IMG/VR virus record: IMGVR_UViG_3300042895_002727
Location: 1-51,529 of that record
Source: a virus
Direction: 5' to 3' (one strand)
Length of the DNA: 51,529 nt
The position numbers were made by a program, and so were the translations under genes. Each line of letters begins with the position of its first letter. The stretch's first letter is position 1. The notes beneath the pieces were generated by a model that did not search any database, was not told the DNA's origin, and was given only the letters and a program-made list of their open reading frames with translations. This document shows, piece after piece, positions 5,982 to 41,534 of the stretch.

Positions 5982-5990
5982 TACGGTGGC

Positions 5991-14100: not shown

Positions 14101-14244
14101 AAAACAAGAATACTTGCTGGCTCTGGAGTGACACTTCTTGCAACACCTGGTGTTTATCTAAGAGCACGCTATTCATCTTGCACATTGGTCAAAACAGAAA
14201 ATGCAAACGAATGGTTTGTTATAGGTGACTTGGCGGCGTCATGA
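11185..14244 (+). CDS. Large tail-fibre protein with duplicated modules
   Basis: 1019 aa with AGGAG six bases before the ATG. An N-terminal ~150-residue domain (start AAYTRKQYSGAARNTTTTTL, then EANELVSKLTTKGDLLV) looks like a particle-binding head. Then come repeated shaft modules built around LGTDTTGNY-x-x-DLT-x-GTG-x-x-ITHTPGEGS, GDVSGSVLF and SGDVVVGGDLTVNGTTTTLNTETLLVEDNIVVLNSG, a combination familiar from long fibres of T4-like cyanophages. The last ~75 residues (LTVPSASVVAFGTGTSITVV to VIGDLAAS) match the C-terminus of the 258-aa protein at 22612-23388. Both are followed immediately by an FN3/Phe-Phe-Pro gene. Likely a receptor-binding fibre subunit. Confidence 0.8.
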   Translation: MAAYTRKQYSGAARNTTTTTLLTNVGTTVDIAATTGWPSIAGIPFYVVINPSSIYEEKCLATISGSTLTLVRAQDDTTASEHQIGSVIYPVFTANDADEANELVSKLTTKGDLLVTDGTNLLRLGVGAEGYFLKASSSASAGVEWASIPTINSLNDIGDVTISDVEEGDFLVYKNSASAWINETIHFITVSDTEPTDEIRVGDLWYNSSELELYTYYSGSWIQVTLTPEFPTVEELNNVYISTASTGDVLAFDGLDWYNDTVSNLLGSHIIALSGDVSGSVLFDSSASVNISTTIQPNSVTLGTDTTGNYVNDLTAGTGVTITHTPGEGSSPTVAIGQAVGTSSSVQFAAVTAPLIGNSSTATTLENARTISLGGDVTGSVSFNGSSDVSITATIQPNSVALGTDTTGNSDNVTEGTTNLYFTDGRARTALLADNAGTASGIRFIAPNTGTVELISHEATRFVRVTSNAAAGGGKTEIQGSAEILASSSISDPGHLTVAGSVTVGGGVVFEGATANDYETFLVATDPTADRTITLPNADGTVALAGSIALGTDTTGNYMSDLTQGTGITITHTPGEGSNATIAIGQAVATSSSVSFARLETSGDVVVGGDLTVNGTTTTLNTETLLVEDNIVVLNSGITGLPTLNSGIEVERGTSANVVMRWNESADRWDFTNDGTTYNNVLLLSEIGQDSLNDTVITSPLNRQSLVYDGTNWVNEFASTVTYARNAEANALSVGEVVYLFGAAGDLASVKRASNSSEATSSKTVGVVSVGADSGANVTVTTLGYVSGIALGSYTAGDALWLGSTPGTFTVTKPVAPAHTVFVGVVARANSGNGIMYVKCQNGYEIEELHNVKINGVSDGQFLRYNSASTVWVNDSINLGTDTVGDYMLNVSAGTGIAISHTQGEGSTASVSTTGVQSLSAKAGNYTLASGDAAETIIIMDSSSANDLTVPSASVVAFGTGTSITVVQRGTGKTRILAGSGVTLLATPGVYLRARYSSCTLVKTENANEWFVIGDLAAS

Positions 14245-15281
14245 TTCCTGGCAATCAGGCAAGTGGTGGGAAGTTTATCGACCCACCAAGCGAAGTAACT
14301 AGTGTTGTAGGTGCTGGCGGAACAGCAGACATAACAATCACCCATACTGGATATAAGGGCAAGTCTGGAATAGTTACATATCGCGTAACTGCGAGCAATG
14401 GAGTAACTGCAACAACTAGTTCCACAACGGTATCCATGCTGGCCGGACTCACCCCGGGAGAAACTTACACATTCTCTGCTGTTGCGATTGAGTCAACAAG
14501 TGCTACTGAATCAGTGGCGTCAGCATCTTCTAGTCCACTTGTTCTTGGTTCTGCACCTTCCGCTCCAGCAACACCAACAGTAACTCTTCCAAGCACTTAT
14601 GGAAATACAACGGCTTCTGTAGCCTGGATTGCGCCAGCCTCTGTTGGCTCTTCGATTACTGACTACACAGTTCAATACTCGTCAGACAGTGGTTCGACAT
14701 GGACGACGTTCAGCCGTGCCGCGTCGACAGCAACTTCCGTGACGGTTACCGGTTTGACAAACGGAACTGCATATGTATTCAGAGTGAATGCAATAAACGG
14801 AATTGGGACTGGAAGCTACTCGACTGCGTCTAGCTCAATCACTCCGTTGTTCGGCAAGGTTCCAACTCCGATTATTGGAGATATTGCAGAGACGGAAAGT
14901 TCAATTCCATGGTGTTACACCAACTACTTCACTGATGGCCTAGAGCAACCTGGCAACGGTGGAACCGCTACGTACAATTACTACGGATTCAATGTTGACG
15001 CGCCAAACGACCAATCTGGAAGTTGTCATGGATGGTTTGGTCTTGGTTATGACACAACTAGATACACATATGTATATGTTTCAAAACCAGGGTGGGCAAA
15101 CTCTGACGCTATCTACATATCAGAAACCACCAACCCAGCGCCGCCGTTCTTCCCGTTCTTCCCGTTCTTCCCGTTCTTCCCGTTCTTCCCGACCTTCGCA
15201 TGCCCTGACTGTCCAGGAATTGGACCATGTTGCCCTCCAGCTGGTTGCGGCGGGTTTAAGGACGGTTTTATATGTATCTAG
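14241..15281 (+). CDS. FN3 x2 protein with (FFP)5 tail and Cys-rich end
   Basis: 346 aa, starting within the previous stop (ATGA), so coupled to the fibre. Residues ~12-105 and ~108-205 are two fibronectin type III domains (LAGLTPGETYTFSAVA; VTGLTNGTAYVFRVNAING). A beta domain with CYTNYF, SGSCHGWFGLGYD and YVYVSKPGW follows. Then PAPP and five perfect FFP triplets lead to a short Cys-rich end (CPDCPGIGPCC, GCGGFKDGFICI). Probably a fibre-tip or capsid-surface adhesin. The FFP tail may bind membranes, drive assembly, or be modified by the phage's prolyl-hydroxylase-like enzymes. Two related proteins occur at 23392-24633 and 44797-45732. Confidence 0.75.
   Translation: MIPGNQASGGKFIDPPSEVTSVVGAGGTADITITHTGYKGKSGIVTYRVTASNGVTATTSSTTVSMLAGLTPGETYTFSAVAIESTSATESVASASSSPLVLGSAPSAPATPTVTLPSTYGNTTASVAWIAPASVGSSITDYTVQYSSDSGSTWTTFSRAASTATSVTVTGLTNGTAYVFRVNAINGIGTGSYSTASSSITPLFGKVPTPIIGDIAETESSIPWCYTNYFTDGLEQPGNGGTATYNYYGFNVDAPNDQSGSCHGWFGLGYDTTRYTYVYVSKPGWANSDAIYISETTNPAPPFFPFFPFFPFFPFFPTFACPDCPGIGPCCPPAGCGGFKDGFICI
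15147..15191 (+). repeat. Five perfect 9-bp repeats encoding FFP
   Basis: Five exact copies of ttcttcccg in frame. Perfect DNA identity means this array can expand or shrink by slippage without a frameshift. Confidence 0.9.
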
Positions 15282-16313: not shown

Positions 16314-16496
16314 ATGCCAATTGTTTTCCCACCATCGCCGTCAACAAATGACGAGTTTTCTGTCGCCGGAAAGTCTTGGGTGTGGAATGGGTTGCGTTGG
16401 CAAAGGTTTAAATCTGCGATAATTGACGGTGGGTTTGCCGACATCGAAATCGATGAGGCCAACGATACCCAGGTTGCTGACGGAGGCGATGCTTAA
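16314..16496 (+). CDS. Short fibre-module protein (FPxxPxxxD / WxWNGxxW)
   Basis: 60 aa. The pattern MPIVFPPSPSTNDEF, then GKSWVWNGLRWQRF, is repeated as the N-terminus of the 258-aa fibre protein at 22612 (MPAIDFPSDAQSGDL, GKTWTFNGSGWVLV). It is a small phage particle module, here stand-alone. The stop overlaps the next start as TAATG, so it is coupled to the 1006-aa fibre, which it may help anchor. Confidence 0.55.
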   Translation: MPIVFPPSPSTNDEFSVAGKSWVWNGLRWQRFKSAIIDGGFADIEIDEANDTQVADGGDA

Positions 16497-19532: not shown

Positions 19533-19844
19533 ATGGCTAATACAGCTGAAATTCTTTTTAGAGGCGCTGCAACGGTTTACACAAACCCTGCGACGGTGCT
19601 CTACACAGTGCCGTCGTTGACGACTACTGTTGTTACGAATATTGTCGTGGCCAATAATGCCGTAGCTGGCGGCACATACTCAATCGGTCTGGATGGTATC
19701 CCTCTTGTTCCAACACTTGAAATACCTGGAAATTCTGTTATTTCCCTAGACCTCAAGCAGGTTCTCGCGGCAGGGGACACAATCACTGGGAATGCAAACT
19801 CAACTGACATTAAATTCCACATCAGCGGGATGGAGATAGCGTAA
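19533..19844 (+). CDS. Small virion protein
   Basis: 103 aa with GGAG upstream. Beta-rich: TVYTNPATVLYTVPSLTTTVVTNIVVAN, then GNSVISLDLKQVLAAGDTI, resembling small phage head-fibre or tail-associated jelly-roll proteins. TAATG overlap couples it to the 921-aa gene. No catalytic residues evident. Confidence 0.55.
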   Translation: MANTAEILFRGAATVYTNPATVLYTVPSLTTTVVTNIVVANNAVAGGTYSIGLDGIPLVPTLEIPGNSVISLDLKQVLAAGDTITGNANSTDIKFHISGMEIA

Positions 19845-22609
19845 TGGGTCTTAACCAAATACCACCTGGCTTAACGCCGATTACACCAGAAGAAGTACTT
19901 TTTGACCCTGTCCAAAAGTTAAGAGTCTCACAGCCACAGTCGTTGATTGACACCGACTTTGAGTATGGAACACAAATTTCAAAGTGGGAAAACCTTACGA
20001 CAGTTGGAAATAGACCGTTTATTTATGACTCGGCAAGTTTTATATCGTCGATTACTGGCATTACGATGAGTACTTCATCAAGAACAGTCACGGTTGCACT
20101 GACTGATACAACTGGGCTTGCTGTTGGAACGCCTATTACCGTCAGAGATACACAGCTATCTATTGCCAACGGTGCGTACCTAATTGAATCTGTTACGACA
20201 AATACATCATTTACGTACACAGGTAAAGCGGTAAACACCGGAACATTGACAGCAATTTTTGATGCAAATAAGACTTCAATTTTTACTGGTGTTATTTTTA
20301 CAAACGCAAAAATAGGCGCAGCTCCAACAGTTTCGTATTCTGGCACTGCAGTTACAGTGACCACGACAATTCCGCACGGTCTTTCAATCGGTAACGAAGT
20401 GGCAGTAACTGGAATTACTACTTCAGGCACAAACCCACCAAACGGCGCAAACTTTGTTTCAAGAATAATTAGCGCAACACAGTTTGTTTATCATGCCCCA
20501 GTTGCACCAACCGGGACTCTTACAGCAACAAGCGCGGCGATTTATACAGCCCCATCAGGAAACTTTCTACACAGACCTTTTGACGGCGGTGTTATTTTCT
20601 CAAACAACGGAACATCTAATTACGAAATGGCCGCACGTCAAACACGCCGTTATTTCCGCTATCAGTCAGGAAAAGGCATCCAGATGTCATCTGGAACACT
20701 GCTCAAACCAGACCTTCAGTTGGACCAGTTGTCATACAGCACGTCAACAAACTTGGTTACAGTGCAAACCAAGGAAAAGCATAACCTCTACCCAGGCTCG
20801 ACAATAACCATTTTTGGTGCTAATGAGGCAATCTTTAACGGTACAACAACCGTTTATACGATTACTGGGTACAATACATTTACGTATACTCCAGCAACTT
20901 CGACTGGAACGAACGTTCTTGCTTCTGGTCCTTATTACATTACCGTTGCAGGTTGGTATGGAAACGTAAACAGAATTGGTTTGTTTGACGACCAAAACGG
21001 AGTGTTCTTTGAATTTGACGGGCAAACGTTGTGGGCCGTAAAACGTTCATCAACATTCCAGATTTCTGGAAAGTCAACATTCACAAATGGCTCATGCACC
21101 GTGACTCAAACAAACGCAGCGTTCCCAACGAGATATGCTGGTCAGCTTGAAATCGGTGACTACATCGTTGCTCGAGGTCAGTCGTACAGAATTACCGACA
21201 TTGCAAGCAACACTGAATTGACAATCAGCCCTGCATGGCGTGGTTCTACTTCAACCATGGTTTCAGTTTCCAAAACAGTGGACTCAAAGTATCCACAAGC
21301 TGAATGGAATCTAGACAAGTTTGATGGAACTGGAGCATCTGGTTACAACGTTGACCTTTCTAGAATGCAGATGTTCTACATCGACTATTCTTGGTATGGT
21401 GCTGGTTTCATCCGTTGGGGTATGCGTGCAAAAGACGGAAAAGTTACTTACTGTCACAAGATAATCAACAACAACACAAATGCCGAAGCGTACATGCGTT
21501 CGGGAAACCTTCCAGCGCGATACGAATCTCTCAGCCAGCCGCCACATACGCAGCTAACTGGAACTTTGTCTGACTCCGAAACAACAACGATGAATGTTGG
21601 AAGCACAACAGGATTCCCAAGCATTGGAACATTGTGTGTATTCAATACGGCAACTGGTTACGAATACATCAACTACACTGGGAAAACTGCAACAACATTT
21701 ACTGGTCTTACAAGACAAAAAACAGGAAACGCTTCCCTCGCCTTAACAATTGCTGCTGGGGCAAACGATGGAACTGTCGCATCAAACTCTGGACTGCAAG
21801 TCGGTCAAAGAGTCACTGGAACAGACGTACCAGACGGAACATTCATTCAACAGATTGATGGCACCAATATCAAGTTAAGTGCTGCTGTGACTGGGGCTAA
21901 CCCAACAGTAAACGCAATCCCGATGGGAACAAGCGCAGCTCTTGCATTTACATACTCAGCATCCAATCCAGTTGGAGTTGAGCTTGCATTCCCAACATAT
22001 GCGCCTTCAATATCTCACTGGGGTACATCGGCAATCATGGACGGAAGATTCGACGACGACAAGTCGCTCGTGTTTACTTATGGTCAGACAACCGGTATTT
22101 CTATCTCGGCAGGAGCAACACGAACCCTGATTGCTATTCGCGTCTCTCCATCAGCAGACAACGGAACCTCGGCGTTCTTCGGTGAAAGAGAGCTTGTTAA
22201 CAGAATGCAGTTGGTGCTAAGAAACCTTGACGTAACGACTACTTCTTCTACATCAAACGTTCTTGTTCAGGCTATCCTGAATGGTGTTCCATCAAACTCT
22301 CGTACATGGGCAAAGCCAACAGCGGTTACATCAAGTTTGGCCCAAATTGCAGACTACCAAGGAACATCAACAACGGTTAGCGGTGGCGAAGTAACTGGTG
22401 GTTTCTTTGTGGGTGGTACAGGTGGTGTGCAGATTGACCTCGGAGACGTTCGAGACCTTGGTAACTCAATTCTTGGCGGAGGCACGACGATAACAACAAC
22501 AGGCATTTACCCAGACGGTCCAGACACATTGCACATTGTTGCTACAAACATCGGTTCTGCTTCTGCGACAGTGTTTGCCCGCCTCTCATGGACGGAAGCA
22601 CAGGCTTAA
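19844..22609 (+). CDS. Very large tail/fibre structural protein
   Basis: 921 aa. The N-terminus (PEEVLFDPVQKLRVSQPQSL, DTDFEYGTQISKWE) matches a class of large structural proteins in T4-like cyanophages. Three beta modules with the same opening follow (SSRTVTVALTDTTGLAVGT, YSGTAVTVTTTIPHGLSIGN, TSTNLVTVQTKEKHNLYPGS), i.e. repeated 'x-x-V-T-V-x-T-x-x-x-H-x-L-x-x-G' units. A long C-terminal domain contains FDDQNGVFFEFDG, WYGAGFIRWGMR and ISAGATRTLIAIRVSPS. Virion fibre or baseplate-attached protein; no enzyme signature seen. Confidence 0.7.
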   Translation: MGLNQIPPGLTPITPEEVLFDPVQKLRVSQPQSLIDTDFEYGTQISKWENLTTVGNRPFIYDSASFISSITGITMSTSSRTVTVALTDTTGLAVGTPITVRDTQLSIANGAYLIESVTTNTSFTYTGKAVNTGTLTAIFDANKTSIFTGVIFTNAKIGAAPTVSYSGTAVTVTTTIPHGLSIGNEVAVTGITTSGTNPPNGANFVSRIISATQFVYHAPVAPTGTLTATSAAIYTAPSGNFLHRPFDGGVIFSNNGTSNYEMAARQTRRYFRYQSGKGIQMSSGTLLKPDLQLDQLSYSTSTNLVTVQTKEKHNLYPGSTITIFGANEAIFNGTTTVYTITGYNTFTYTPATSTGTNVLASGPYYITVAGWYGNVNRIGLFDDQNGVFFEFDGQTLWAVKRSSTFQISGKSTFTNGSCTVTQTNAAFPTRYAGQLEIGDYIVARGQSYRITDIASNTELTISPAWRGSTSTMVSVSKTVDSKYPQAEWNLDKFDGTGASGYNVDLSRMQMFYIDYSWYGAGFIRWGMRAKDGKVTYCHKIINNNTNAEAYMRSGNLPARYESLSQPPHTQLTGTLSDSETTTMNVGSTTGFPSIGTLCVFNTATGYEYINYTGKTATTFTGLTRQKTGNASLALTIAAGANDGTVASNSGLQVGQRVTGTDVPDGTFIQQIDGTNIKLSAAVTGANPTVNAIPMGTSAALAFTYSASNPVGVELAFPTYAPSISHWGTSAIMDGRFDDDKSLVFTYGQTTGISISAGATRTLIAIRVSPSADNGTSAFFGERELVNRMQLVLRNLDVTTTSSTSNVLVQAILNGVPSNSRTWAKPTAVTSSLAQIADYQGTSTTVSGGEVTGGFFVGGTGGVQIDLGDVRDLGNSILGGGTTITTTGIYPDGPDTLHIVATNIGSASATVFARLSWTEAQA

Positions 22610-24642: not shown

Positions 24643-25257
24643 ATGGATTCAGATTGGATTGATGTAGAGTCTCTTCCATTTTCAAACCCTGGAAACATAG
24701 TTATAAAAGAAAATTTTATTTCTGCGGAAAATGTAAAAAAAATATACGAATATTGCAAAAAAACAACTGAGTGGGGAACACAGAGCCCACTAGGTTCTGA
24801 CAGTATTCATACACATATTCAAATACAAAACAATTCTCCGCAGATACACCAGATACTGCAAAATTGTGTAAATGATGTTCAATATGAAATTGAATATCAT
24901 TTTGGTAGAGAACTCGAAAAAGCAAATCCAGGTTTAAGGAAATGGCATCCAGGCGAAAGACAAGACCTTCATGCTGACGGAGAAACCGCAGGTGGATGGC
25001 CTACATACAACTACATAGTTGATTATGGTTCAATTATGTATTTGAACGACAACTATGAGGGCGGAGAAATTTTTTTCCCAAAATATCACATAAAACTTAA
25101 ACCGAAACCTGGGACACTCATATTTTTCCCATCAAACAGAAATTACACTCACGGAGTTAACGAAATTATTTCTGGCGTGCGGTACACATCTGCCCATTTT
25201 TGGGTTCCAACAAAAAATAAAATGTTGGTTGACATGGCTAAAATTAATGAAATATAA
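24643..25257 (+). CDS. 2OG-Fe(II) oxygenase, prolyl-hydroxylase-like (group B)
   Basis: 204 aa. Double-stranded beta-helix with the iron triad His110-x-Asp112 (DLHADGE) and His170 (YTHGV). Arg180, ten residues later (SGVRYTS), would bind 2-oxoglutarate. YLNDNYEGGEIFFP and KPKPGTLIFFPS are the flanking strands typical of phage P4H-like enzymes. It would hydroxylate a substrate using O2, 2-oxoglutarate and Fe(II). First gene of the rightward accessory run, immediately after the FFPP-tailed FN3 gene. Confidence 0.88.
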   Translation: MDSDWIDVESLPFSNPGNIVIKENFISAENVKKIYEYCKKTTEWGTQSPLGSDSIHTHIQIQNNSPQIHQILQNCVNDVQYEIEYHFGRELEKANPGLRKWHPGERQDLHADGETAGGWPTYNYIVDYGSIMYLNDNYEGGEIFFPKYHIKLKPKPGTLIFFPSNRNYTHGVNEIISGVRYTSAHFWVPTKNKMLVDMAKINEI

Positions 25258-25996
25258 AAAAGCTTATTTTTTGCACATACCAAAAACATCCGGAATGAAG
25301 ATGCAGTACGACTTGTTAAATGCTGCTCGTAAATGCAAAAACAAAGTTAAGCCTTCTGTGTATTTGCCGGGCGAATTTGAATTTGTATTCAACCCAGATA
25401 CAGCCAAAACAAATGAAATAATCTGTGGACATTTCGGGAGAAATCCAATAGAAACAGTTAAAAACATTTTTTCATTTTCTATGATTCGTGAGCCATACGA
25501 ACAATACCTAAGCACATTAAAATACGCTGCGAGCTATACGAATCAACCGTTCACGGAAGATTTTCTTGATTTTTTTTTGACAGAGGGCAATGAAATGTTG
25601 TCTCAATTTGAGGGTATGTCCGGCTGCGAAAACCCTCAGTCTTGTTTTCTTTATTCAAAGACTTCATACCTCGCATTGCAAACTGCAAATCACGAAAAAG
25701 TTGTGTTTGTGGAAAAACCACAATCAATAGAAGATGTGATGAATAAAATTGAAAACATAATTATTGGAACTGTTGTAAATAGAGATTATTTTATCAATAT
25801 TTTAAATGCGTATTTGTATGATTTGTTTCAGATAAAAATAGAGAACAGCATTGAGATAGTAAATTCAACACCAAGACTAGATTTTAAGATAAGCAAAAAA
25901 CATAAAAATTTAATCATGTCAAAAATTTGGCTAGATTTTGAAATTTACAACATACTTTTTACTAAAGAACAAAAAAGAATTCTTGATGCACGATAA
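25247..25996 (+). CDS. Sulfotransferase-like protein
   Basis: 249 aa from the ATG at 25247, which overlaps the oxygenase stop and begins MKYKKAYFLHIPKTSG. HIPKTSG is the PAPS 5'-phosphosulfate loop of the Sulfotransfer_2 type family. FSMIREPYEQYLSTLKYA corresponds to the 3'-phosphate-binding motif (R-x-P-x-x-R/E-x-x-S). The ~100-residue C-terminus is AT-rich and poorly conserved. Likely transfers sulfate to a glycan or protein. Paralogue of the next gene. Base composition is more AT-rich than the fibre genes, suggesting separate acquisition. Confidence 0.7.
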   Translation: MKYKKAYFLHIPKTSGMKMQYDLLNAARKCKNKVKPSVYLPGEFEFVFNPDTAKTNEIICGHFGRNPIETVKNIFSFSMIREPYEQYLSTLKYAASYTNQPFTEDFLDFFLTEGNEMLSQFEGMSGCENPQSCFLYSKTSYLALQTANHEKVVFVEKPQSIEDVMNKIENIIIGTVVNRDYFINILNAYLYDLFQIKIENSIEIVNSTPRLDFKISKKHKNLIMSKIWLDFEIYNILFTKEQKRILDAR

Positions 25997-26747
25997 ATTT
26001 ATGAAGCGCTTGTACCACTTGCATATACCCAGAACTTCAGGAATGGGTATTTGCCACGCACTATGGAAAACATTTTACAATAATGGAATTGTTGATGTGT
26101 ATTTACCAGACGCACATGAATCACAGCTAATGTACGACGACGAAGGAATGAGAGACTTTCCTTTCATATCTGGACACTTTGCAAAAAATCCAATTGTTTA
26201 CAATAACGACGGCTTTGAAGTTTTCTCAATAGTCAGAGACCCAGTAGAGCATTTTGTGAGTATTGCGGCTTACGCATCAGTTGGCGCTGGTTTAAAAATG
26301 TCGAATGAATACATGGATGAGTTCATCTATGGGAACATGACACCCTTTGGGGTTAATGAGCTGTTTTCAAACTCTGGAAACATACAGTCAAAAATGTTGT
26401 TTTGCAGAATTGCATTTGTTGACAAGTCTCTTGTGTCGCTTAGTAATGACGATGTTCGGAATGATGAAAATATTGTTTTTATAGAAAATGACATGCCGGA
26501 CGAAGATGGGATAAAAGAGTTAATTGAATATATGAACTTGTTTTCGCTTCCTAAAAGATTAGAGGCAATTAGCTGGCTTGAGCAAAAATTAAAAAAATCA
26601 CATGGTTTTTCTTTGGATAAATCAATTTATAACACATTAAATTGTTCAAATAAAAATGGATTCAAACCAGATAAAAGCCACATAAAAGAAATAAAACGAC
26701 GTTCTGAGATAGACCAATATTTGTATGATTTGGTGCAGAAACGGTAA
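25986..26747 (+). CDS. Sulfotransferase-like protein, paralogue
   Basis: 253 aa from 25986; the ATG at 26001 (MKRLYHLHIPRTSG) is equally plausible and aligns better with the upstream paralogue. HIPRTSG is the PAPS loop with Arg replacing Lys. FPFISGHFAKNP matches the paralogue's IICGHFGRNP. FSIVRDPVEHFVSIAAYA is the 3'-phosphate motif. The Lys-to-Arg change in the loop could alter activity. Tandem duplication with the previous gene, overlapping by 11 bases. Confidence 0.68.
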   Translation: MHDKFMKRLYHLHIPRTSGMGICHALWKTFYNNGIVDVYLPDAHESQLMYDDEGMRDFPFISGHFAKNPIVYNNDGFEVFSIVRDPVEHFVSIAAYASVGAGLKMSNEYMDEFIYGNMTPFGVNELFSNSGNIQSKMLFCRIAFVDKSLVSLSNDDVRNDENIVFIENDMPDEDGIKELIEYMNLFSLPKRLEAISWLEQKLKKSHGFSLDKSIYNTLNCSNKNGFKPDKSHIKEIKRRSEIDQYLYDLVQKR

Positions 26748-26765: not shown

Positions 26766-27395
26766 ATGTCGGCAATTGAAAATTCACCATGGGAAATACC
26801 ACCGGGCCATTTTGGTAGCGGTCCAGAAAATATTCATATAATCGAAAATTTTATAGACCAAGAAGACCTAAACAAAATACAAAATTTTTGCCCAACTATA
26901 AACGAGTGGAACAATGAAGCAGAAAGCGTTTACTCGGAAGATGGAACATGTTTGTACAACGCTGATTATTGGAATGATAGACAGTGCAGCAGCGAAATCA
27001 TTCTTAGACTAAATCCTGATGTCCATAAAATAATAGATAAATATATACATAAAATGAAGAACACAATTGAAAATATTTTCAATGTACAGGTATCAGTCCG
27101 ACCACCCGTGATAATGAAGTGGCGACCCGGGATAGAGCAACGCCCGCATGCAGACAAACAGCTCAATGATGGAAGACCAAACGCTTTTGTAAATTACGAT
27201 ATAAACTCGTTATTTTATTACAACGATGATTTTGACGGTGGCGAACTTTATTATCCGCAACACGAAATCAGCGTTAAACCAAGACCAGGTTTAGCAGTAA
27301 TACACCCAGGAGATGTTAATTATTTGCATGGTGTGACCATGATTGAAAAAGGCTACAGGTATACAACGCCATCTTTTTATACTGTGGAGAAGTGA
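26766..27395 (+). CDS. 2OG-Fe(II) oxygenase, prolyl-hydroxylase-like (group B)
   Basis: 209 aa. Iron triad His128, Asp130 (RPHADKQ) and His188 (YLHGV), with Arg198 ten residues on (GYRYTTPSF). MKWRPGIEQRPHAD aligns with KWHPGERQDLHAD of the enzyme at 24643, showing these two are paralogues. YYNDDFDGGELYYP is the strand after the HxD. Stop and next start abut (TGA-GTG). Confidence 0.88.
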   Translation: MSAIENSPWEIPPGHFGSGPENIHIIENFIDQEDLNKIQNFCPTINEWNNEAESVYSEDGTCLYNADYWNDRQCSSEIILRLNPDVHKIIDKYIHKMKNTIENIFNVQVSVRPPVIMKWRPGIEQRPHADKQLNDGRPNAFVNYDINSLFYYNDDFDGGELYYPQHEISVKPRPGLAVIHPGDVNYLHGVTMIEKGYRYTTPSFYTVEK

Positions 27396-27929
27396 GTGAA
27401 AATATTCTATGAATTTAATTTTATTTCCGAGAAAGAACGCTCGTTAATTATTGAATTTGTAAATAAATATCCAGAAGTTGAAAATCACGCAAAAGACGAT
27501 GATTGCGTAAGGTATTACAGTAGTGATTATATTTTGTGTTTAGACGATTTTGTCTACGGTATTCTTTTTTCTATTTCCGAAAGGGTGCGAATTGCTGCTG
27601 AGGAAATGTTCGGTTTGAGTCTTGATTCCTGTGTGCCAAATTTGTTCAAAACGGAGGTCGGCCACAAACCGGAAGAGCATGCAGACAATGTCAACATGGA
27701 TGGCTCCCACAAGGATGGCTGTTCAAATTTTGTTGTTTCTTCGATTGTTTACTTTAATGATGATTTTTTAGGAGGAGAACTAGTTTTTCCAAAATTATCT
27801 ATTTCATACAAACCAATTGCTCGTAGCTGCGTGCTTTTCCCAAGCGGAATCGATTATTCGCACTATGTGGATAATGTAAAAAACGGCTATCGCTTGGTGT
27901 TGCCGCTCTGGTTTGAGGGTGTAGGATGA
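27396..27929 (+). CDS. 2OG-Fe(II) oxygenase, short group B member
   Basis: 177 aa from a GTG directly after the previous TGA, with GGAGAAG in the upstream coding end. Triad His95, Asp97 (EEHADNV) and His156 (DYSHYV), with Arg166 (GYRLVLPLW). YFNDDFLGGELVFP is the conserved strand. Shorter than its neighbours at the N-terminus but with a full catalytic core. Confidence 0.85.
   Translation: MKIFYEFNFISEKERSLIIEFVNKYPEVENHAKDDDCVRYYSSDYILCLDDFVYGILFSISERVRIAAEEMFGLSLDSCVPNLFKTEVGHKPEEHADNVNMDGSHKDGCSNFVVSSIVYFNDDFLGGELVFPKLSISYKPIARSCVLFPSGIDYSHYVDNVKNGYRLVLPLWFEGVG
27922..27927 (+). promoter_or_regulatory. Possible -10 (TAGGAT) or ribosome site
   Basis: TAGGAT six bases before the ATG at 27934 fits the leaderless pattern, but the AGGA inside it is also a usable Shine-Dalgarno at seven bases, so its role is ambiguous. 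Confidence 0.25.
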
Positions 27930-27933
27930 TTTC

Positions 27934-28668
27934 ATGAAAAACATTGAAGTAGAATATGTTGGCGACCCCAAAGCAGGTTTTCTAGTTTACAGAAATGTGC
28001 TTAGCGAGGATTTGAGAATCCCAGAGCGCCTCGAGGCGACTGTTGGGGGAAGCAGTACGCCACCATACTCATGGATGCAGGCGCTGGTTGGCGATGGTGA
28101 AGTAATGAAGGACTACAGAGATTGCGTGGACTGTAAAATAAGTCCAACACATCTTGAAAATTGTCCATCAGAATTTTCTGAATTAATAAATATATACAAC
28201 GATACCGTATATGGATTAACAGCCTGCCTTCAAGATTACGAAGCAAGATACAACTTGCGCATGGATTTTATGGAGGCAATTAATTATGTTAGATACAGGG
28301 AGGGGCAGCACTTCAGCATACACGCTGACCATGGTTTTTCTTACATATGCACAGTGTCTTCGGTTATGTATTTAAATGACGATTACGAGGGTGGAGAATT
28401 ATGGTTCCCATACCTTGACATAAAGTTCAAACCAACTTATGGCGACATAGTGATGTTCCCATCTACATACATTTATGCTCATGCATCTCTGCCTGTAACG
28501 AGGGGTACCAAATACGCAGCAGTTACAATGTTTGACTACAATGACAGATTCCATAAAATGTGGAAAGGTTACGGCAAAGACCTTGACGGGGAAAAAGCAA
28601 CATACGATAAGTCAAATGTTTTTTCAACATCTAGCGACATTGGGGAAAGGTTTATTTTTAAAAAATGA
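27934..28668 (+). CDS. Prolyl 4-hydroxylase-like 2OG oxygenase (group A, Lys type)
   Basis: 244 aa. Triad His130, Asp132 (SIHADHGF) and His183 (YAHASL). The 2-oxoglutarate residue, ten after the distal His, is Lys193 (GTKYAAV) rather than Arg. Authentic collagen-type and algal prolyl 4-hydroxylases have the same H-x9-K arrangement. Group A hallmarks are YRDCVDCK at ~61-68 and YLNDDYEGGELWFP. A ~45-residue C-terminal extension is unique to this copy. ATGA overlap with the DUF6065 gene that follows. Paralogues at 40038 and 41535 have the same type of partner. Confidence 0.88.
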   Translation: MKNIEVEYVGDPKAGFLVYRNVLSEDLRIPERLEATVGGSSTPPYSWMQALVGDGEVMKDYRDCVDCKISPTHLENCPSEFSELINIYNDTVYGLTACLQDYEARYNLRMDFMEAINYVRYREGQHFSIHADHGFSYICTVSSVMYLNDDYEGGELWFPYLDIKFKPTYGDIVMFPSTYIYAHASLPVTRGTKYAAVTMFDYNDRFHKMWKGYGKDLDGEKATYDKSNVFSTSSDIGERFIFKK

Positions 28669-29366
28669 CAAAGTTATTCCTTAAAAAAATGCACTCGAAA
28701 CCACCTGTTATAGAACAGTCTCGTATTAAAAGAGACTGGATGGATAACACCTACAATAAACACGCTTATCAGTGCCTGCCAATGACTGTTGCAAACGTCT
28801 ACGGATGGGAATTGCAAATGGAGGAAGACCTTGTTGTCCAGTGGGATGGAGGAAATACTCCTCCCGTTATTCTTTCTGGCGAGATATCTTCATCCGGTCG
28901 CGTTCAGGCTACATCTTCAATAATAGGAATGATTTCCATCCATATGGGGTGGGTCATTAATACTGAAGAAGGTTACAACACGTGGTTTTCAGGCTCTCCA
29001 AACTATTTTGTAGATGGAGCAATACCGCTCACTGCGACAATACCCAGCTACTGGTGGCCGGATGAATCTCAAATGAACTGGAAAATAACAAAAATTGGAG
29101 AGCCTGTAGTTTTTGAAGCAGGAAGTCCATTTTGTTTTTTTAATATTTACGATAATTCAATTCTGGAAAACACCGAAGTTATTGTTTCAAATTTCTGGGA
29201 CGATGCCGAGCTGGTGGATTCTAGAATGAAATATGGTGAACTCAAGGCGCGAAATGGTATTGAAAAACCATGGACTTGGACCAAAGGGATTCGTACAGGT
29301 CTTGACGCTGACGATAATCGGATAGGGCCGACATTCACTGGTCTGCCGAAATTGGCCAATCCGTAG
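28665..29366 (+). CDS. DUF6065-type protein
   Basis: 233 aa. IKRDWMDNTYNKHAYQCLPMTVAN and GWELQMEEDLVVQWDGG match the opening of the DUF6065 family found in phages and bacteria; function unknown. The homologous protein at 42197-42901 shares VKRDWMDETSGNHAYRCFPVTQAN. Overlaps the group-A hydroxylase by four bases. A beta-sandwich or cupin-like fold is likely from the strand pattern. The repeated pairing suggests it recognises or presents the hydroxylase substrate, which is inference. Confidence 0.7.
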   Translation: MTKLFLKKMHSKPPVIEQSRIKRDWMDNTYNKHAYQCLPMTVANVYGWELQMEEDLVVQWDGGNTPPVILSGEISSSGRVQATSSIIGMISIHMGWVINTEEGYNTWFSGSPNYFVDGAIPLTATIPSYWWPDESQMNWKITKIGEPVVFEAGSPFCFFNIYDNSILENTEVIVSNFWDDAELVDSRMKYGELKARNGIEKPWTWTKGIRTGLDADDNRIGPTFTGLPKLANP

Positions 29367-30519: not shown

Positions 30520-31270
30520 GTGGCTACGTACTGCAATGGTTACGCATCTGTTGAGTAATACTCCCATGCAGCGTGTTCTGGGGACGGAATCATCCTGGGA
30601 AGATATAACTAACGAGGTCTTTGAGTCAGCGCAAAAAGCAATTGATTGGCGAGCATCCTTGAACTTGAATATGTCAATCGCATCCAGGGGTACTTCGGAG
30701 GGGGTTTGGTATATGGATTTGCTCCTAAACCCACAGACTGGGTGGAGAGAGATAATGGCAAACATGCATAACTCGGTTGAGTTGTTTATGTCTGTCAAGA
30801 ATCCAGAAAAAATACTGTTTTTTAGTCCGGATTTGTGGAGTTCGCAATTCATAGAATTCTCTAAGAGAAAAAACATCAGCATAAATTTTGTTAACAATCA
30901 ATCTCTTTATAATTTTGAAACTTTTCTACGTGACCACTCCATGAGTATCGGTTCGGAAAGCCTTAGAGATACAAGTTATGGCGTTGTCGAGCCAGACGAG
31001 ATAGGCGACGGAGAGGCTTCCGGTTTTGACCTAATTCAAGTTATGGGCTGGGATGTTGCTTACGATATAGAGTTGCTTGAAAAATGCATTGGCTCCCTGT
31101 CTTCTGGCGGTGTGCTGCTGATAAACTCAACAAACAATTCCGGGAAGATTTACAGAGACGATTACAACCTGCACCCACTAAGTGATTTACACGAAGTGCT
31201 AAAGTTTTCAAATGGAAGCACATTTCACAACTCTGAAAGTTACGGATACACGGCTTTCGTTAAGGACTAA
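30509..31270 (+). CDS. Methyltransferase-like Rossmann protein
   Basis: 253 aa from the ATG at 30509 (MDNRWLRTAMV), which overlaps the previous stop. The second half has the shape of a class I methyltransferase C-terminal part: FDLIQVMGWDVAYDIELLEKCIGSLSSGGVLLINSTNNSG. Glycine motif I is not clear and the N-terminal half is divergent, so activity is uncertain. An O-methyltransferase for a small substrate is one option. Adjacent to the AspH-like gene, separated by one base. Confidence 0.45.
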   Translation: MDNRWLRTAMVTHLLSNTPMQRVLGTESSWEDITNEVFESAQKAIDWRASLNLNMSIASRGTSEGVWYMDLLLNPQTGWREIMANMHNSVELFMSVKNPEKILFFSPDLWSSQFIEFSKRKNISINFVNNQSLYNFETFLRDHSMSIGSESLRDTSYGVVEPDEIGDGEASGFDLIQVMGWDVAYDIELLEKCIGSLSSGGVLLINSTNNSGKIYRDDYNLHPLSDLHEVLKFSNGSTFHNSESYGYTAFVKD

Positions 31271-31271
31271 A

Positions 31272-31967
31272 ATGTCAATGGAGCCAGCATTCTGGGATGA
31301 TATTATTAGGGAAATCCCCGTATGCGTGGAGATTGAAAAAAATTGGCTCTCTATAAAAGACGAATTTAATTCCTATATGGAACATAGCCACCCATTCCCA
31401 ACCAGGGGTGGCGGCAACACTCTTGCGTCGCCAAAGCTCAAGATAAAATCAAACGAAAAAGAAGAAGAAGAAGAAATAGACCTTTATTCAGGGGTGTGGG
31501 ATGTTTGTTTTGCTGGGACAAGACCAAGCGCAGATAGCAGGCAGTGGGGAAATACCGAACTGCTGGGTAGCGTGGTTAAGTGGAAGACAAAAAAAGACCT
31601 AGAGGCACATCTTGATTACTCAAGTTCTTATTTTAAGACATTTAATTCAATAGTCTCAGAGTTTGCAGATGATGGACAGTGTTCTGGCGGAATGTTCAGC
31701 ATAGTGAAACCAGGGGCAATAATTAATCCACACAATGGTTCTGACAAAATAATGAGATGTCACTTATGCATTGTAAACGATAAACAATGCAAAATTACCG
31801 TTGGAAATGAGACCAGGACATGGGATGAGGGGAAAATTCTTGCGTTCAAGGATGGCCCGCCATACAGGCACTCTGTAATACACGAAGGAACAAATGACAG
31901 GGTGGTTTTAATATTTGATTTTGACCTAGAGTATCTACGCGATACGGTTGGTAGTGGGTACCTGTGA
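31272..31967 (+). CDS. Aspartyl/asparaginyl beta-hydroxylase-like oxygenase
   Basis: 231 aa from the ATG at 31272 after AAGGA. Strong match to the AspH catalytic domain: INPHNGSDKIMRCHLCIV (His154, Arg162), GNETRTWDEGKILAF and YRHSVIHEG (His200), then DRVVLIFDFD (Arg210). AspH enzymes bind Fe(II) with two His and no carboxylate, as here, and hydroxylate Asp/Asn in EGF-like or similar domains using 2-oxoglutarate. Residues ~62-71 are a run of acidic amino acids. Distinct lineage from the P4H-like neighbours. The stop overlaps the desaturase start (GTGA). Confidence 0.85.
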   Translation: MSMEPAFWDDIIREIPVCVEIEKNWLSIKDEFNSYMEHSHPFPTRGGGNTLASPKLKIKSNEKEEEEEIDLYSGVWDVCFAGTRPSADSRQWGNTELLGSVVKWKTKKDLEAHLDYSSSYFKTFNSIVSEFADDGQCSGGMFSIVKPGAIINPHNGSDKIMRCHLCIVNDKQCKITVGNETRTWDEGKILAFKDGPPYRHSVIHEGTNDRVVLIFDFDLEYLRDTVGSGYL

Positions 31968-32788
31968 ACCAACTGTACCCAGACAAAACAAACGACGGAA
32001 TAAGGTGGCCGATAATTTTTTTCTGGATTTCTCTTATGTTCTCCTACGTGTTGGTTGCGTTAGTTTCCATTGTTGGGCATTTCCCACTGTTTATCGCCAC
32101 ATTAATAAACACGGTAATTTGTTACTACCTATTTGTGGTAATGCACGAGGCAATACACGGGAACGTAAACGGTGGAATAAAAAAGTTTAAATTTTTGAAT
32201 AAGTTAGTTGGTCATTCTAGTTCCGTGTTTTTGGGTTTGCCGTTTTTGGGTTACGGCAAATTACATATCGCGCATCATAGGTACGCAAATTCAAAATTGG
32301 ACCCTGATAGTAGTTGTTCGGATGGTGCTATTTCAATAATTGAATTCCCAACAAAAAGATTGTACGAAAAAGTAGTTGTTTGTTTTCCAGGTGGCATTAA
32401 GCTTTTAAAAAAAACGTTAGGCAGAAGAGAGGCGATATTTGCGTATTTAATGTATAAAGATAAGGCTCAAGTTAATTTTTACAGAGCAACTTTCGTCTTA
32501 TTTCTTTCGTCGTATATGTTTGGGAAACTGATGGAATTTACGTTCATATGGCTTTTCCCAACCTTTATTTTTCCGTATCTAGTGTTCGTTTTCTTATCGT
32601 GGTTCCCACACATAAGCTATTCGTACGTTTCTGGGAAAACAACAGAGGCAGAGAACCAAAATTTTACTGCAAAAAATAATAAATTTGTTTTTGGATTCAT
32701 ATTTACCGGACTACACCATAAGCACCTTAACCACCACCTAAAGCCAAGCGTACCATTTTACAAATTGAATAAAGTTAAAAATATATGA
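31964..32788 (+). CDS. Membrane fatty-acid-desaturase/hydroxylase-like protein
   Basis: 274 aa from GTG. All three histidine boxes of membrane di-iron desaturases/hydroxylases are present: HEAIH at 61-65, HIAHH at 101-105, and HHKHLNHH at 251-258. Hydrophobic stretches at ~15-60, ~88-98 and ~178-212 fit four transmembrane spans with the boxes cytoplasmic. It would introduce a double bond or hydroxyl into a lipid or terpenoid (beta-carotene-hydroxylase-like is possible). AT-rich relative to neighbours, suggesting transfer. The stop overlaps the next start. Host lipid remodelling during infection is inferred. Confidence 0.8.
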   Translation: MNQLYPDKTNDGIRWPIIFFWISLMFSYVLVALVSIVGHFPLFIATLINTVICYYLFVVMHEAIHGNVNGGIKKFKFLNKLVGHSSSVFLGLPFLGYGKLHIAHHRYANSKLDPDSSCSDGAISIIEFPTKRLYEKVVVCFPGGIKLLKKTLGRREAIFAYLMYKDKAQVNFYRATFVLFLSSYMFGKLMEFTFIWLFPTFIFPYLVFVFLSWFPHISYSYVSGKTTEAENQNFTAKNNKFVFGFIFTGLHHKHLNHHLKPSVPFYKLNKVKNI

Positions 32789-33456
32789 AAATTTACGATG
32801 ACGCCATAGATGAGACTGTTTATTCAGCAATCATCCAGGATGCATCATTTTTCCCTGGTCCAATGACAGCTGATTCACGCATTGCTAGCGAGCTCAACTC
32901 TTATCATGATGAAAAATCCAGCTGCTATGCACCTTATATGTTTTGGCATGGTTGGTGGTCTTCTTCGGCCAACACACTTAGGAAGCAAGTCATTAGGGAG
33001 ATATGGGAAACCAATCTACCAATGCCGATAAGTGAAGTTCTTGGATTTGAGTACTGGACAAGAACATTTGGGGCTGGACAGTTTCTTGGACCCCATGTTG
33101 ATGAAGACACTTTTCTTTATCAGGATAAAAAAATATACAACGGGCCTGAAGTTGGGTGTGTCTATTACGGCCCATCAAAAGAAAAAGTGGTTGGTGGGTT
33201 TCTTGAGCTTTTTGAATCAAAGCTTGTCTTTGGTGAGCACAATGCGCTTGAATGGGAAAATTTGAAAAAACATATTGACCCGATTGAGATGCGAGAGCGA
33301 ATTGCCTTTAGAGAAAATCGATTGGTTATATTTGATGCAGGTCGGGTTGTGCATCAAACTAGCCCTTGTTTGTATGGGGTTAGAAATGTAATGGTTGTCA
33401 ATGTGTGGCTGAAATCAAACCCACCAGTAGATATGTCCAACTTTGTATATGAGTAA
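32785..33456 (+). CDS. 2OG-Fe(II) oxygenase, divergent
   Basis: 223 aa. His104-Val-Asp106 (GPHVDED), His190 (VVHQTSP) and Arg200 (YGVRNVMVVNVW), spaced like the others. A ~45-residue insertion between strand IV and the distal His (YGPSKEKVVGGFLELF...) distinguishes it. N-terminus MKIYDDAIDETVYSAII. Not closely related to groups A-C in this window. Confidence 0.8.
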   Translation: MKIYDDAIDETVYSAIIQDASFFPGPMTADSRIASELNSYHDEKSSCYAPYMFWHGWWSSSANTLRKQVIREIWETNLPMPISEVLGFEYWTRTFGAGQFLGPHVDEDTFLYQDKKIYNGPEVGCVYYGPSKEKVVGGFLELFESKLVFGEHNALEWENLKKHIDPIEMRERIAFRENRLVIFDAGRVVHQTSPCLYGVRNVMVVNVWLKSNPPVDMSNFVYE

Positions 33457-34093
33457 AATAAATACTATTCCTTTAATAAATCAAAACATATTTACATCGC
33501 AGCTTTTGGACATAGACAATGAACAGATTGTGTCCGATATAAACTTATACGGTTTTCCAGTTAATGCAGATTGCGAAGAATATGGCTCAGTAAGTCGTGG
33601 TTTTGTGCAGTATGAAGATACAGTTGTTCCAGTAACACCTGAATTCACAAAACTTGAAAAATTAATTGTTCAAATTGTTGACGAAGTAACAAATCGTAAA
33701 TACAAAATTGATGAAATATGGGCGATAAAATTAATGCCTGGGCAGAGTGTGATAGCTCACAGTCATTACAAAAACCATCACACACACCCTGGTGACTATT
33801 TTTCTATTGCTTACTACCCATCTGCCCCACTTGATTCTGCGGATTTAATTTTTTCAGCGCACTGGTGTGGTTATATGCACAACACTATTTCTGTTAAGCC
33901 GCAAGATGGACTGTTGATTATTTTTAACTCATTTATTACCCACATGACAGCACGGCAAATGATTGAAAGTCCAAGGATTGTTGTAAGCATGAATCTTAGC
34001 CCAATTGAACCCAGAGTAAACCCAAATGCAGATTGGGGAATATACACGGATAGACCAATCATAGAATCTCCGGTGGTTAAAAAAACTGACTAA
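33449..34093 (+). CDS. 2OG-Fe(II) oxygenase-like (TIGR02466-type)
   Basis: 214 aa from the ATG at 33449. A cupin-like core with IAHSHYKNHHTHPGDYFSIAYYP, SAHWCGYMHNTISV and DGLLIIFNSFITHMT (His165), then SPRIVVSMNL (Arg176), follows the TIGR02466 family. The histidine-rich loop (104-113) makes the exact iron ligands uncertain, and a canonical H-x-D is not obvious. Possible substrate hydroxylase, or a degenerate member. Confidence 0.6.
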   Translation: MSKINTIPLINQNIFTSQLLDIDNEQIVSDINLYGFPVNADCEEYGSVSRGFVQYEDTVVPVTPEFTKLEKLIVQIVDEVTNRKYKIDEIWAIKLMPGQSVIAHSHYKNHHTHPGDYFSIAYYPSAPLDSADLIFSAHWCGYMHNTISVKPQDGLLIIFNSFITHMTARQMIESPRIVVSMNLSPIEPRVNPNADWGIYTDRPIIESPVVKKTD

Positions 34094-34102: not shown

Positions 34103-34963
34103 ATGTCTTTCAATGTGGAAAATCTCGGTGGTGGTGTAGTTGTATTCAGGGATGCAGTAAATGTTCCAGTCGTGGAGATTACAGGCCTGATAGATGAACT
34201 TTCTGACGCAGCCATAAAAGCACAGTATGAGTATGTATACGATATTGACGGAAAACCAATTCACGCAATAAACAAAAGTGGTTTTATTTACGAACTTAAT
34301 GAAATATCAAAAACTCCAATAAGAGTTCAAGAGCTGAATCACGGTTTCTTTATAGAGTGCGAAGAAGCTATCTACAGGTGCTTACTTGAGTATGTAGAAA
34401 TGTTTCCCGCTGTACTGCAGTGTCTTTGGTGGAAAAGCGAAGGGCACGCACTTAAATATCCATCTGGCTCAAAACTGGGTTTCCACTGCGACAACGATGT
34501 CAACTACAGGTATGGTCATTTCCCTCCTTTTGAGCACGCCACTAGAAACGTCATAAGTGCTCTCCTCTATATAAACGATAATTGCGATGAATCGGATTGC
34601 GATGAGTATTCATTTACTGGCGGAGAAATGGTTTTGCCGTATTTTGACATAACCATAAAACCTAAAAGTGGAACAATTCTTTTTATGCCAGCAAACTACT
34701 TGGGCGCTCATGAAATACTAGAAGTAACTTCAGGTTCTAGGTACTCATACCTTTCGTGGTTTGCACAGGGCTCCCCGCAACAAGACAAAGGGGTCTCACC
34801 GCAAGAGCCAACGGATTCCGCACAAAGGCCGGTGGGTGGACAATGGTGGATGAAAACCATAGTTGAAGACTACGAACAATACTTAATGGATAAATATGGT
34901 GATGAGGGTAAGATACCATCAGGAAAGACTCCATTCAAATCAAGAAAAGATGACCATCAATGA
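34103..34963 (+). CDS. 2OG-Fe(II) oxygenase, group C
   Basis: 286 aa. The N-terminal tag LGGGVVVFRDAV marks group C. The core has LKYPSGSKLGFHCDND (His128, Asp130), FTGGEMVLPYFDI, GAHEILEV (His203) and SGSRYSYLSWF (Arg213). The C-terminal ~60 residues (QQDKGVSPQEPTDSAQRPV, EDYEQYLMDKY) form a flexible tail and helix shared with other group C members. First of three consecutive rightward copies; two more are inverted at 37119-39075. Confidence 0.85.
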   Translation: MSFNVENLGGGVVVFRDAVNVPVVEITGLIDELSDAAIKAQYEYVYDIDGKPIHAINKSGFIYELNEISKTPIRVQELNHGFFIECEEAIYRCLLEYVEMFPAVLQCLWWKSEGHALKYPSGSKLGFHCDNDVNYRYGHFPPFEHATRNVISALLYINDNCDESDCDEYSFTGGEMVLPYFDITIKPKSGTILFMPANYLGAHEILEVTSGSRYSYLSWFAQGSPQQDKGVSPQEPTDSAQRPVGGQWWMKTIVEDYEQYLMDKYGDEGKIPSGKTPFKSRKDDHQ

Positions 34964-35850
34964 TTTTTAACAACTCTAAAGCCGAACATCTTGGTGGTGG
35001 TGTTGTTGTATTTCGTAACGCCATAAGCCTTGATTGGGATTACGTTAACCGAATATCTAAAGAAATTGTTGACAGAGAGATGGGCGATATGTACCAGCCG
35101 GCTATCAATCCAGACAATGGCTTGGAAGAATATGTTAACAGAAGTGGTTATTTTTTTTCAAAAAATGGGATAGATAGAATGCCAAGAAGGGGGTCTAGGG
35201 TACACCAGGACACAAGACCAGAAGTAGCTGAATTATTTTGTTTTATTGAGGAATGCAAAGATAAATATCTTTTCAGATATATGCACATGTTCCCAATTGT
35301 TTTCAAAAACATATGGTGGAAAGTGAAAGGACATTTAGTCAATTACTCTTCCGAGTGTGGGGGTTTCATAGGGGAGCATAGCGACACGAGCGTTGACTAT
35401 GTTTATGGATTACCACACCCTCAACATCAGCTTGCTTCAAGAAACACACTGTCATGTTTGGTTTATTTTGGTAACTGCCTAGATGGGGAGAAAGTTTTTG
35501 AGCTGGGTGACTTTACAGGTGGGCATCATAAGTTTACATATTTGGATATTGAGTACATTCCAAGAAGAGGCGATGTTTTGATGTTTCCATCAAACTATAT
35601 TGCTGCGCATGAAGTTACTCCGGTTGAATCAGGCAACAGATTCACCTATCTTGGATGGTACGCTCATGGAACGCCAAATCCATCAGTTAACGAAGAAGTT
35701 GAAGACCCTCTCGTCAACCCAGAAAAAGCGGCTGTATCCTCCAATGTTTATATCCCGCATCTCAGGGAAAGATTTATTGAATATCTGGAATCGGTTGGCG
35801 AGGAAAAATCTTCTAATACATATCGACTGGCAATGGGTGAACACGCATGA
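34960..35850 (+). CDS. 2OG-Fe(II) oxygenase, group C
   Basis: 296 aa, ATGA overlap with the previous gene. Tag LGGGVVVFRNAI; triad His140, Asp142 (IGEHSDTS) and His217 (AAHEVTP), with Arg227 (GNRFTYLGWYAHG). GGHHKFTYLDIEYIPRRGDVLMFPSNY is the conserved strand pair. The 5' end uses a near-identical tag to the preceding copy, consistent with tandem duplication. Confidence 0.85.
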   Translation: MIFNNSKAEHLGGGVVVFRNAISLDWDYVNRISKEIVDREMGDMYQPAINPDNGLEEYVNRSGYFFSKNGIDRMPRRGSRVHQDTRPEVAELFCFIEECKDKYLFRYMHMFPIVFKNIWWKVKGHLVNYSSECGGFIGEHSDTSVDYVYGLPHPQHQLASRNTLSCLVYFGNCLDGEKVFELGDFTGGHHKFTYLDIEYIPRRGDVLMFPSNYIAAHEVTPVESGNRFTYLGWYAHGTPNPSVNEEVEDPLVNPEKAAVSSNVYIPHLRERFIEYLESVGEEKSSNTYRLAMGEHA

Positions 35851-36587
35851 AAATCAAACACTTGGGTCATGGGATAGCCATCGTTTATGGCCTAATCGAG
35901 CGTGATGAAATTGACGAAAACGAATTGCTGCATATAGCCAATGCAAAGATTCCTCAGGGTTATTCGCTTATTGACGGCAAGCTTATAAGTGATGGTGGTT
36001 ATGAATTTGACGAACAAGGCAAGCAAGCAGCTCCAAGCAGATACACGGACATAGAAGAACTCGGGATAACAACATTGCTAAGAAAAGCAATTTATTCAGC
36101 TGCTGTGGAGTACTGCAAAATTTTTCCTGTTGCAACGGAGTGCATAACTGGTCAAACCGATGGATACCTAATTAGATACCTAACTGGCAATGGAATGGGG
36201 CCGCATTCAGACTGCAACATTCCTTACAAACCCGGAACATTGGAACCACTAACAACAAGCCCTGCTTTCAACACGCTCACAACATCAATTTTTATAAATG
36301 ATGGCTATGCAGGCGGGGACGTCAGATTCAGGACCTGGGGAATAAATGCAAAACCGGAGTTTGGCTCCGCACTTATATATCCATCTAATTTTATTGGTTG
36401 CCACGAAGTAGATGAAGTCACAAGTGGAGAGCGCTGGGCATTTCTGTCGTGGTTTTATCACGGTAATGGCCAAGAAAATAAACCAGGCGCTTATGATTGG
36501 GTTAATAAATTCAGGTCAGATGTTGGTTTGCTGAATAGCCAACAAAAACAGGTTTTAGTCGGCGAGCATAAAACACAAAACCATTAA
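35847..36587 (+). CDS. 2OG-Fe(II) oxygenase, group C, shortened
   Basis: 246 aa. Tag reduced to LGHGIAIVYGLI; triad His120, Asp122 (GPHSDCN) and His186 (GCHEVDE), with Arg196 (GERWAFLSWF). Lacks the insertion and some of the C-terminal extension of the other group C enzymes. Convergent with the dehydrogenase-like gene, sharing four bases at the 3' ends. Confidence 0.82.
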   Translation: MKIKHLGHGIAIVYGLIERDEIDENELLHIANAKIPQGYSLIDGKLISDGGYEFDEQGKQAAPSRYTDIEELGITTLLRKAIYSAAVEYCKIFPVATECITGQTDGYLIRYLTGNGMGPHSDCNIPYKPGTLEPLTTSPAFNTLTTSIFINDGYAGGDVRFRTWGINAKPEFGSALIYPSNFIGCHEVDEVTSGERWAFLSWFYHGNGQENKPGAYDWVNKFRSDVGLLNSQQKQVLVGEHKTQNH

Positions 36588-39075: not shown

Positions 39076-39077
39076 AA

Positions 39078-41524: not shown

Positions 41525-41534
41525 GGCATTTCAA

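Follow-up and report, generated by a model that had tools for sequence, protein, structure and literature searches.

In the window, the whole 51,529-nucleotide stretch of viral DNA analysed here, three genes encode proteins that join FN3 domains to arrays of Phe-Phe-Pro or Phe-Phe-Pro-Pro units, and the locus raises the question of what such arrays are for. The original prediction offered three options: a stalk, a membrane-inserting segment or a modification target. The pairing it described holds in both protein and DNA. The Pfam fn3 profile (PF00041) matches P0003, P0001 and P0002 with E-values of 1e-17, 8e-19 and 5e-20, respectively, at 64-72 bits (cut-off 25), and the tandem repeats are also found in the DNA (Table 1). 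In P0003, the array PPFFPFFPFFPFFPFFP follows two FN3 domains and precedes a Cys-rich end. P0002 contains two blocks, PPFFPFFP and PPFFPFFPFFP, followed by a Cys-rich end of about 80 residues, while the C-terminus of P0001 is formed by ten (Y/F)FPP units and the sequence SFFPGFK. Two proteins thus carry a Cys-rich end and one ends in the repeat, as predicted. All six frames of the window contain no FFP/FFPP array outside these three proteins.

Table 1 Features of the array genes, the anchor gene and the oxygenase island in the window.
Feature	Position	Strand	Note
P0003	14241..15281	+	FN3 x2, beta-type domain, (FFP)5 array, Cys-rich end
(FFP)5 array of P0003	15141..15191	+	exact 9-bp DNA repeat
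Virion structural protein, used as anchor	19844..22609	+	homologue in cyanophage S-PM2, 44% identity
P0001	23392..24633	+	FN3 x4, terminal (Y/F)FPP array, ending GFK
(Y/F)FPP x10 array of P0001	24484..24603	+	mainly synonymous variation
2OG-Fe(II) oxygenase immediately after P0001	24643..25257	+	model resembles prolyl hydroxylases
Two sulfotransferase-like genes inside the island	25229..26747	+	phrog_3347
2OG-Fe(II) oxygenase	26766..27395	+	PF13640, just below cut-off
2OG-Fe(II) oxygenase	27396..27929	+	PF13640
2OG-Fe(II) oxygenase	27934..28668	+	PF13640
DUF6065 protein, near-constant partner of array genes	28665..29366	+	PF19541
Asp/Asn beta-hydroxylase-like	31212..31967	+	PF05118
2OG-Fe(II) oxygenase-like	32785..33456	+	PF13640, under cut-off
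2OG-Fe(II) oxygenase	33443..34093	+	PF13759
2OG-Fe(II) oxygenase	34103..34963	+	PF13640
2OG-Fe(II) oxygenase	34960..35850	+	PF13640
2OG-Fe(II) oxygenase	35847..36587	+	PF13640
2OG-Fe(II) oxygenase	37119..38090	-	PF13640
2OG-Fe(II) oxygenase	38077..39117	-	PF13640
2OG-Fe(II) oxygenase	40038..40751	+	PF13640
phrog_7084 protein	40748..41524	+	present in 131/230 array/oxygenase loci
2OG-Fe(II) oxygenase	41451..42200	+	PF13640
Second DUF6065 protein	42197..42901	+	PF19541
DXD glycosyltransferase inside the island	42931..43623	+	PF04488; rare in relatives
2OG-Fe(II) oxygenase	43608..44279	+	PF13640
P0002	44797..45732	-	FN3 x2, two short FFP blocks, Cys-rich end

A PHROGs search of the proteins finds minor-tail and central-tail-fibre FN3 families, and array genes have tail, virion structural, Mtd_N and Baseplate_J genes as neighbours, placing the arrays in a tail module. 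In the predicted structure of P0001, the four FN3 domains are confidently folded (pLDDT mostly over 90), and the array, with a pLDDT of about 37-51, is devoid of secondary structure. The model fits a segment that is extended or disordered, and which may take the form of a polyproline-II rod. A sequence search finds no known structure for the array, from which novelty of fold does not follow. The stalk option fits this arrangement of folded FN3 domains and a segment predicted to be unstructured that follows genes of tail type. The window has two further features: a 12-bp tandem repeat of 11 copies (17863-17994) inside a gene for a 1006-residue tail fibre with an Mtd_N domain (16496-19516), and a minus-strand cluster of methyltransferase-like, HAD-like and glycosyltransferase-like genes (1987-7088) that adjoins the tail module. 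One 172.5-kb contig contains both P0003 and P0002 at 100% identity; together with the S-PM2 match of the adjacent structural protein, this makes the source phage probably a T4-like myovirus.

The arrays are widespread in viruses. Two scans for the pattern in the viral collection yield at least 248 array reading frames, hundreds of viral loci carry them, and an array is present in 3 of 120 random viral contigs. Many arrays run for 40-170 residues composed almost only of Phe and Pro. When 255 distinct complete array proteins are classified mechanically, about 200 have FN3-like N-termini, and the C-termini are Cys-rich in 76, -FK in 70 and Hint/intein-like in at least 17; FFPP units number 2313 vs 1323 for FFP. 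The Phe-Lys ending is shared by terminal arrays of otherwise different proteins, and in the window it lies at 24625-24633. The Hint/intein-like domains stand directly behind the arrays (L049, L058, L163, L193, L276 and L640-L647), several of them ending in HNK, which suggests self-processing on the C-terminal side of the array. A second architecture without FN3 is seen in L256, L237 and L254, where a long FFPP array with FK at its end comes directly after a short N-terminal domain of PASTA-like type.

Cellular genomes present another picture. Across 84,980 bacterial and archaeal genomes (257 Gb), 65 stretches match the pattern and only one, L370, is an FN3-FFP protein, so the scatter of repeats over unrelated genes as low-complexity noise, which the original prediction had set against itself, is not what is seen. 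The metagenome-assembled genome (MAG) holding L370 also contains a DUF6065 locus (L666) with the same run of oxygenase and DUF6065 genes as the viruses. A bacterial origin is rejected on these grounds, the MAG sequence being most likely viral DNA placed in the wrong bin. In the cyanobacterium Kamptonema sp. UHCC 0994, pure 9-bp minisatellites of FFP type are spread over numerous contigs; their frames are very short and have no relation to the viral genes (L321-L323, L331, L334, L337, L355, L359 and L381). Among cultured isolates, tblastn with two array proteins, one array-Hint protein and two oxygenases returns none with arrays; the oxygenase matches listed are mainly from cyanophages, at about 27-34% identity. 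In cyanophage relatives of the anchor gene, the array/oxygenase module is absent from the regions read.

Between P0001 and P0002, which bound it, lies an island of 15 2OG-Fe(II) oxygenase genes, mostly co-oriented: 13 match PF13640 (11 above the cut-off), one PF13759 and one PF05118. A profile built from 13 of these enzymes finds Bacillus anthracis prolyl 4-hydroxylase (P4H) as its best match (2.8e-17), followed by P3H1 and then by PiuC-type, Chlamydomonas (algal), human and PBCV-1 prolyl hydroxylases. The iron-binding HxD...H triad is invariant in the 13 aligned enzymes (H110, D112 and H170) and the motif is present in 979 of 1002 relatives; about 10 positions past the distal His, at the place of the 2OG anchor, the aligned rows carry a Lys or Arg, in register with the lysine of the B. 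anthracis enzyme. The model of the enzyme directly downstream of P0001 (pLDDT 86) has P3H1 (Z 18.8), Pseudomonas putida P4H (18.5) and PBCV-1 vCPH (17.4) as structural neighbours, along with PHD2 and an algal P4H in complex with a Ser-Pro peptide (Z 16.9). By both profile and fold, prolyl hydroxylases are the best match of the island enzymes. PiuC-type and OGFOD1 enzymes follow closely, leaving the substrate specificity unsettled, and a shared fold is no proof of a shared substrate; metabolites, nucleic acids and residues other than proline are also substrates within the 2OG superfamily.

The island is tied to the arrays across viruses, on one side and at close range. Among the 239 array loci listed, 38-65% of the genes in slots +1 to +8 after an array gene are oxygenases, against 0-1% in slots -1 to -6. 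The three random viral contigs that carry an array all carry an oxygenase as well, none of the 120 has one without the other, and 117 have neither. Of 45 array loci lacking an oxygenase, only 7 extend over at least 3 kb downstream. In a set of loci chosen by the structural anchor gene, all 29 with arrays have 4-7 oxygenases downstream, and among the 33 without arrays the count is 0 in 25, 1 in 7 and 3 in 1. Five loci initially scored as array-free contain a degenerate FFxPPx array, in which FF and PP are retained, followed by a Hint-like domain and 5-6 oxygenases. Contigs of at least 65 kb have 6-13 PF13640 genes with arrays vs 0-2 without, a difference that holds at equal genome size; five shorter array contigs (31-54 kb) have 0-1 oxygenases and may be fragments. 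The option of a modification target gains support from these tandem prolyl-hydroxylase-like genes, which stand directly downstream of the array and are absent, or nearly so, where it is missing.

A further component follows the same split. DUF6065 is found in 222-223 of 230 loci with both array and oxygenases and in 0 of 45 array-free relatives, and whole contigs divide in the same way; it is single-copy in 221 of the 230 loci and always lies downstream. Sequence search finds no known structure for it, which does not imply a novel fold, and no paper on it was found in the open-access literature. Matches also occur in 36 of 289 alphaproteobacterial genomes, where the short stretches read around them contain no relative of the oxygenases. 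A glycosyltransferase was considered as another constant partner and rejected, being present in only 4 of the 230 loci.

The association is very tight, and it rests on few independent events. On the anchor-protein tree, two changes of array state each coincide with one in the oxygenases, whose state changes three times in all. The additional change falls at L611, where the neighbouring protein is Gly-rich with GNPG repeats. By single linkage, 271 of 278 array loci fall into one lineage. The first association tables were inflated by this relatedness, and because the tree reduces them to 2-3 independent events, small p-values overstate independence. These figures lend weight to the chief rival of hydroxylated stalks: the arrays would be unmodified spacers or tips that stand beside the island through shared descent, the gene order having been inherited from a few ancestors, and the enzymes would act elsewhere, on metabolites, DNA bases, glycans of the host surface or further tail proteins. 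The sulfotransferase-like and glycosyltransferase genes of the island, together with a fatty acid desaturase gene, are compatible with such targets, as is the DNA-repair role suggested earlier for cyanophage genes with a P4H domain (PMC2984593). Against it stand the matched gain or loss of enzymes in both array changes, the adjacent and one-sided gene order, and nearest folds and profiles that are those of prolyl hydroxylases. Shared descent as the whole explanation is possible, on the unlikely side. Collagen-like genes also occur in relatives that lack the island, which shows that the presence of a repeat with proline is not enough to bring the enzymes along.

The balance tips slightly towards proline-rich tail stalks that are hydroxylated by dedicated phage prolyl hydroxylases. 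P0001, P0002 and P0003 would be adhesins or stalks of the tail module, each consisting of a rigid rod of FN3 domains and an extended, unstructured proline-rich segment that either ends the protein or connects the rod to a Cys-rich tip. In late infection, the prolyl-hydroxylase-like oxygenases and the DUF6065 protein would modify the proline segments, thereby stiffening and solubilising a region otherwise composed of little but Phe and Pro. Hydroxylation could also prime the array for glycosylation or sulfation, producing a phage counterpart of plant hydroxyproline-rich glycoproteins. That degenerate FFxPPx arrays also precede 5-6 oxygenases argues for hydroxylated stalks, as does the constancy of proline in the array slot of P0003; inherited synteny, which could explain much of the association, argues against them, as does the unexplained need for 15 enzymes on so simple a substrate. 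The analysis establishes the proteins, the selection acting on them, their linkage to the enzymes and the likeness of these enzymes to prolyl hydroxylases; the array as substrate, proline as the hydroxylated residue, a mechanical or adhesive role and a place in the virion are each presumed in this proposal. The chances appear about even that the parts form one undescribed and widespread phage system, in which a dedicated battery of prolyl hydroxylases, FN3 proteins bearing arrays of Phe-Pro or other proline type and DUF6065 as a specific third component give rise to hydroxyproline-rich tail stalks.

The sequence of the arrays bears on a further alternative, in which the Phe-rich segment stays unmodified and attaches to lipids, LPS or adjacent particles as a hydrophobic sticker or membrane-active tip. 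Arrays of such length and composition would suit this role, as would the conserved FK terminus of 70 of the 255 proteins and the strict retention of Phe/Tyr in terminal arrays of P0001 type. In the ten-unit array of P0001, 101 of 117 pairwise differences between units fall at third codon positions, the remaining 16 are Phe/Tyr changes at second positions, and first positions have none, a mark of selection on the protein. Orthologues of 56-95% overall identity retain the array, with Phe/Tyr exchange almost the sole change and the terminal Lys kept. The array slot of P0003 is filled in its orthologues by (VDPGFP)3, PAPTPAPT, (PT)n, about 30 prolines or SPPPP; proline, not phenylalanine, is therefore conserved there, and FFP is one solution among several. 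The (FFP)5 array of P0003 itself, being an exact 9-bp repeat, is young. Poly-Pro, PT and SPPPP are no hydrophobic stickers, and the array lacks any predicted helix or other secondary structure, making the sticker improbable. The membrane-inserting option has no support, and for P0003 the replacement of the array in orthologues speaks against it. The three array proteins, described as paralogues in the original prediction, are as it described them in layout; they are not equivalent, since the P0003 slot varies while the FFPP array of P0001 is strictly conserved.

Codon pattern, conservation in orthologues and gene position rule out low-complexity noise. The least probable reading, a slipping 9- or 12-bp minisatellite translated in frame by chance, may apply to the origin of the P0003 copy and does describe the majority of the 65 cellular matches, often in short or odd frames, but it is already refuted for P0001-type arrays by their near-synonymous variation and retention in orthologues, and hundreds of viral genes carry mixed FFP/FFPP arrays at the same place behind FN3.

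P4H genes are reported to rank among the most abundant auxiliary genes of viruses in the Baltic water column, where their viral use 'remains cryptic' (PMC9301287). The loci described here offer such genes a concrete candidate substrate encoded next door, and DUF6065 gains a functional lead. If hydroxylation of the stalks is real, it would help explain why P4H genes are so common among the auxiliary genes of aquatic viruses, and it would represent, as far as could be found, the first bacteriophage system of structural proteins rich in hydroxyproline; neither FFP/FFPP phage repeats nor hydroxyproline or extensin in phage tails was found in the open-access literature, outside which most subscription journals lie. 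Hydroxylated Phe-Pro rods would also constitute a new repetitive biomaterial.

Known systems resemble the arrays or their enzymes in part. The FN3 minor tail proteins phrog_6977 and phrog_31 share the tail-type FN3 domains, but their matches cover the FN3 part only and none reaches the array. Proline-rich antimicrobial peptides of PR-39 type contain PPFFPP, as the arrays do; they are short, secreted and cationic, whereas the arrays are nearly uncharged and lie within large proteins. Collagen-like (G-X-Y) tail fibres of phages likewise place repetitive proline-containing segments in tail proteins, but the Phe-Pro arrays have no glycine at every third position. In the cyanophage isolate S-CAM7, a 'putative prolyl 4-hydroxylase' (L663, MT586120.1 19565-20161) lies near a large GPP-rich collagen-like gene, providing a cultured test case for proline hydroxylation in phages. 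Plant extensins and other hydroxyproline-rich glycoproteins have the SPPPP signature that is seen in some P0003 orthologues, and plant and algal P4H enzymes share the fold of the island enzymes. Ser-Pro3-5 repeats are absent from P0001, P0002 and P0003 and present in the orthologues L601, L598 and L587. FFP/FFPP is not an extensin motif, and glycosylation of the arrays is hypothetical, and glycosyltransferases are rare at these loci. The phages may thus assemble a stalk that is hardened chemically and akin to the plant cell wall. The closest viral parallel is vCPH of PBCV-1 (5c5t), a virus-encoded P4H of the same fold, whose presumed targets are proline-rich proteins of the virus itself. PBCV-1 is an algal virus of another kind and its enzyme is associated with collagen repeats, whereas in these tailed phages a multi-gene island is linked to Phe-Pro arrays.
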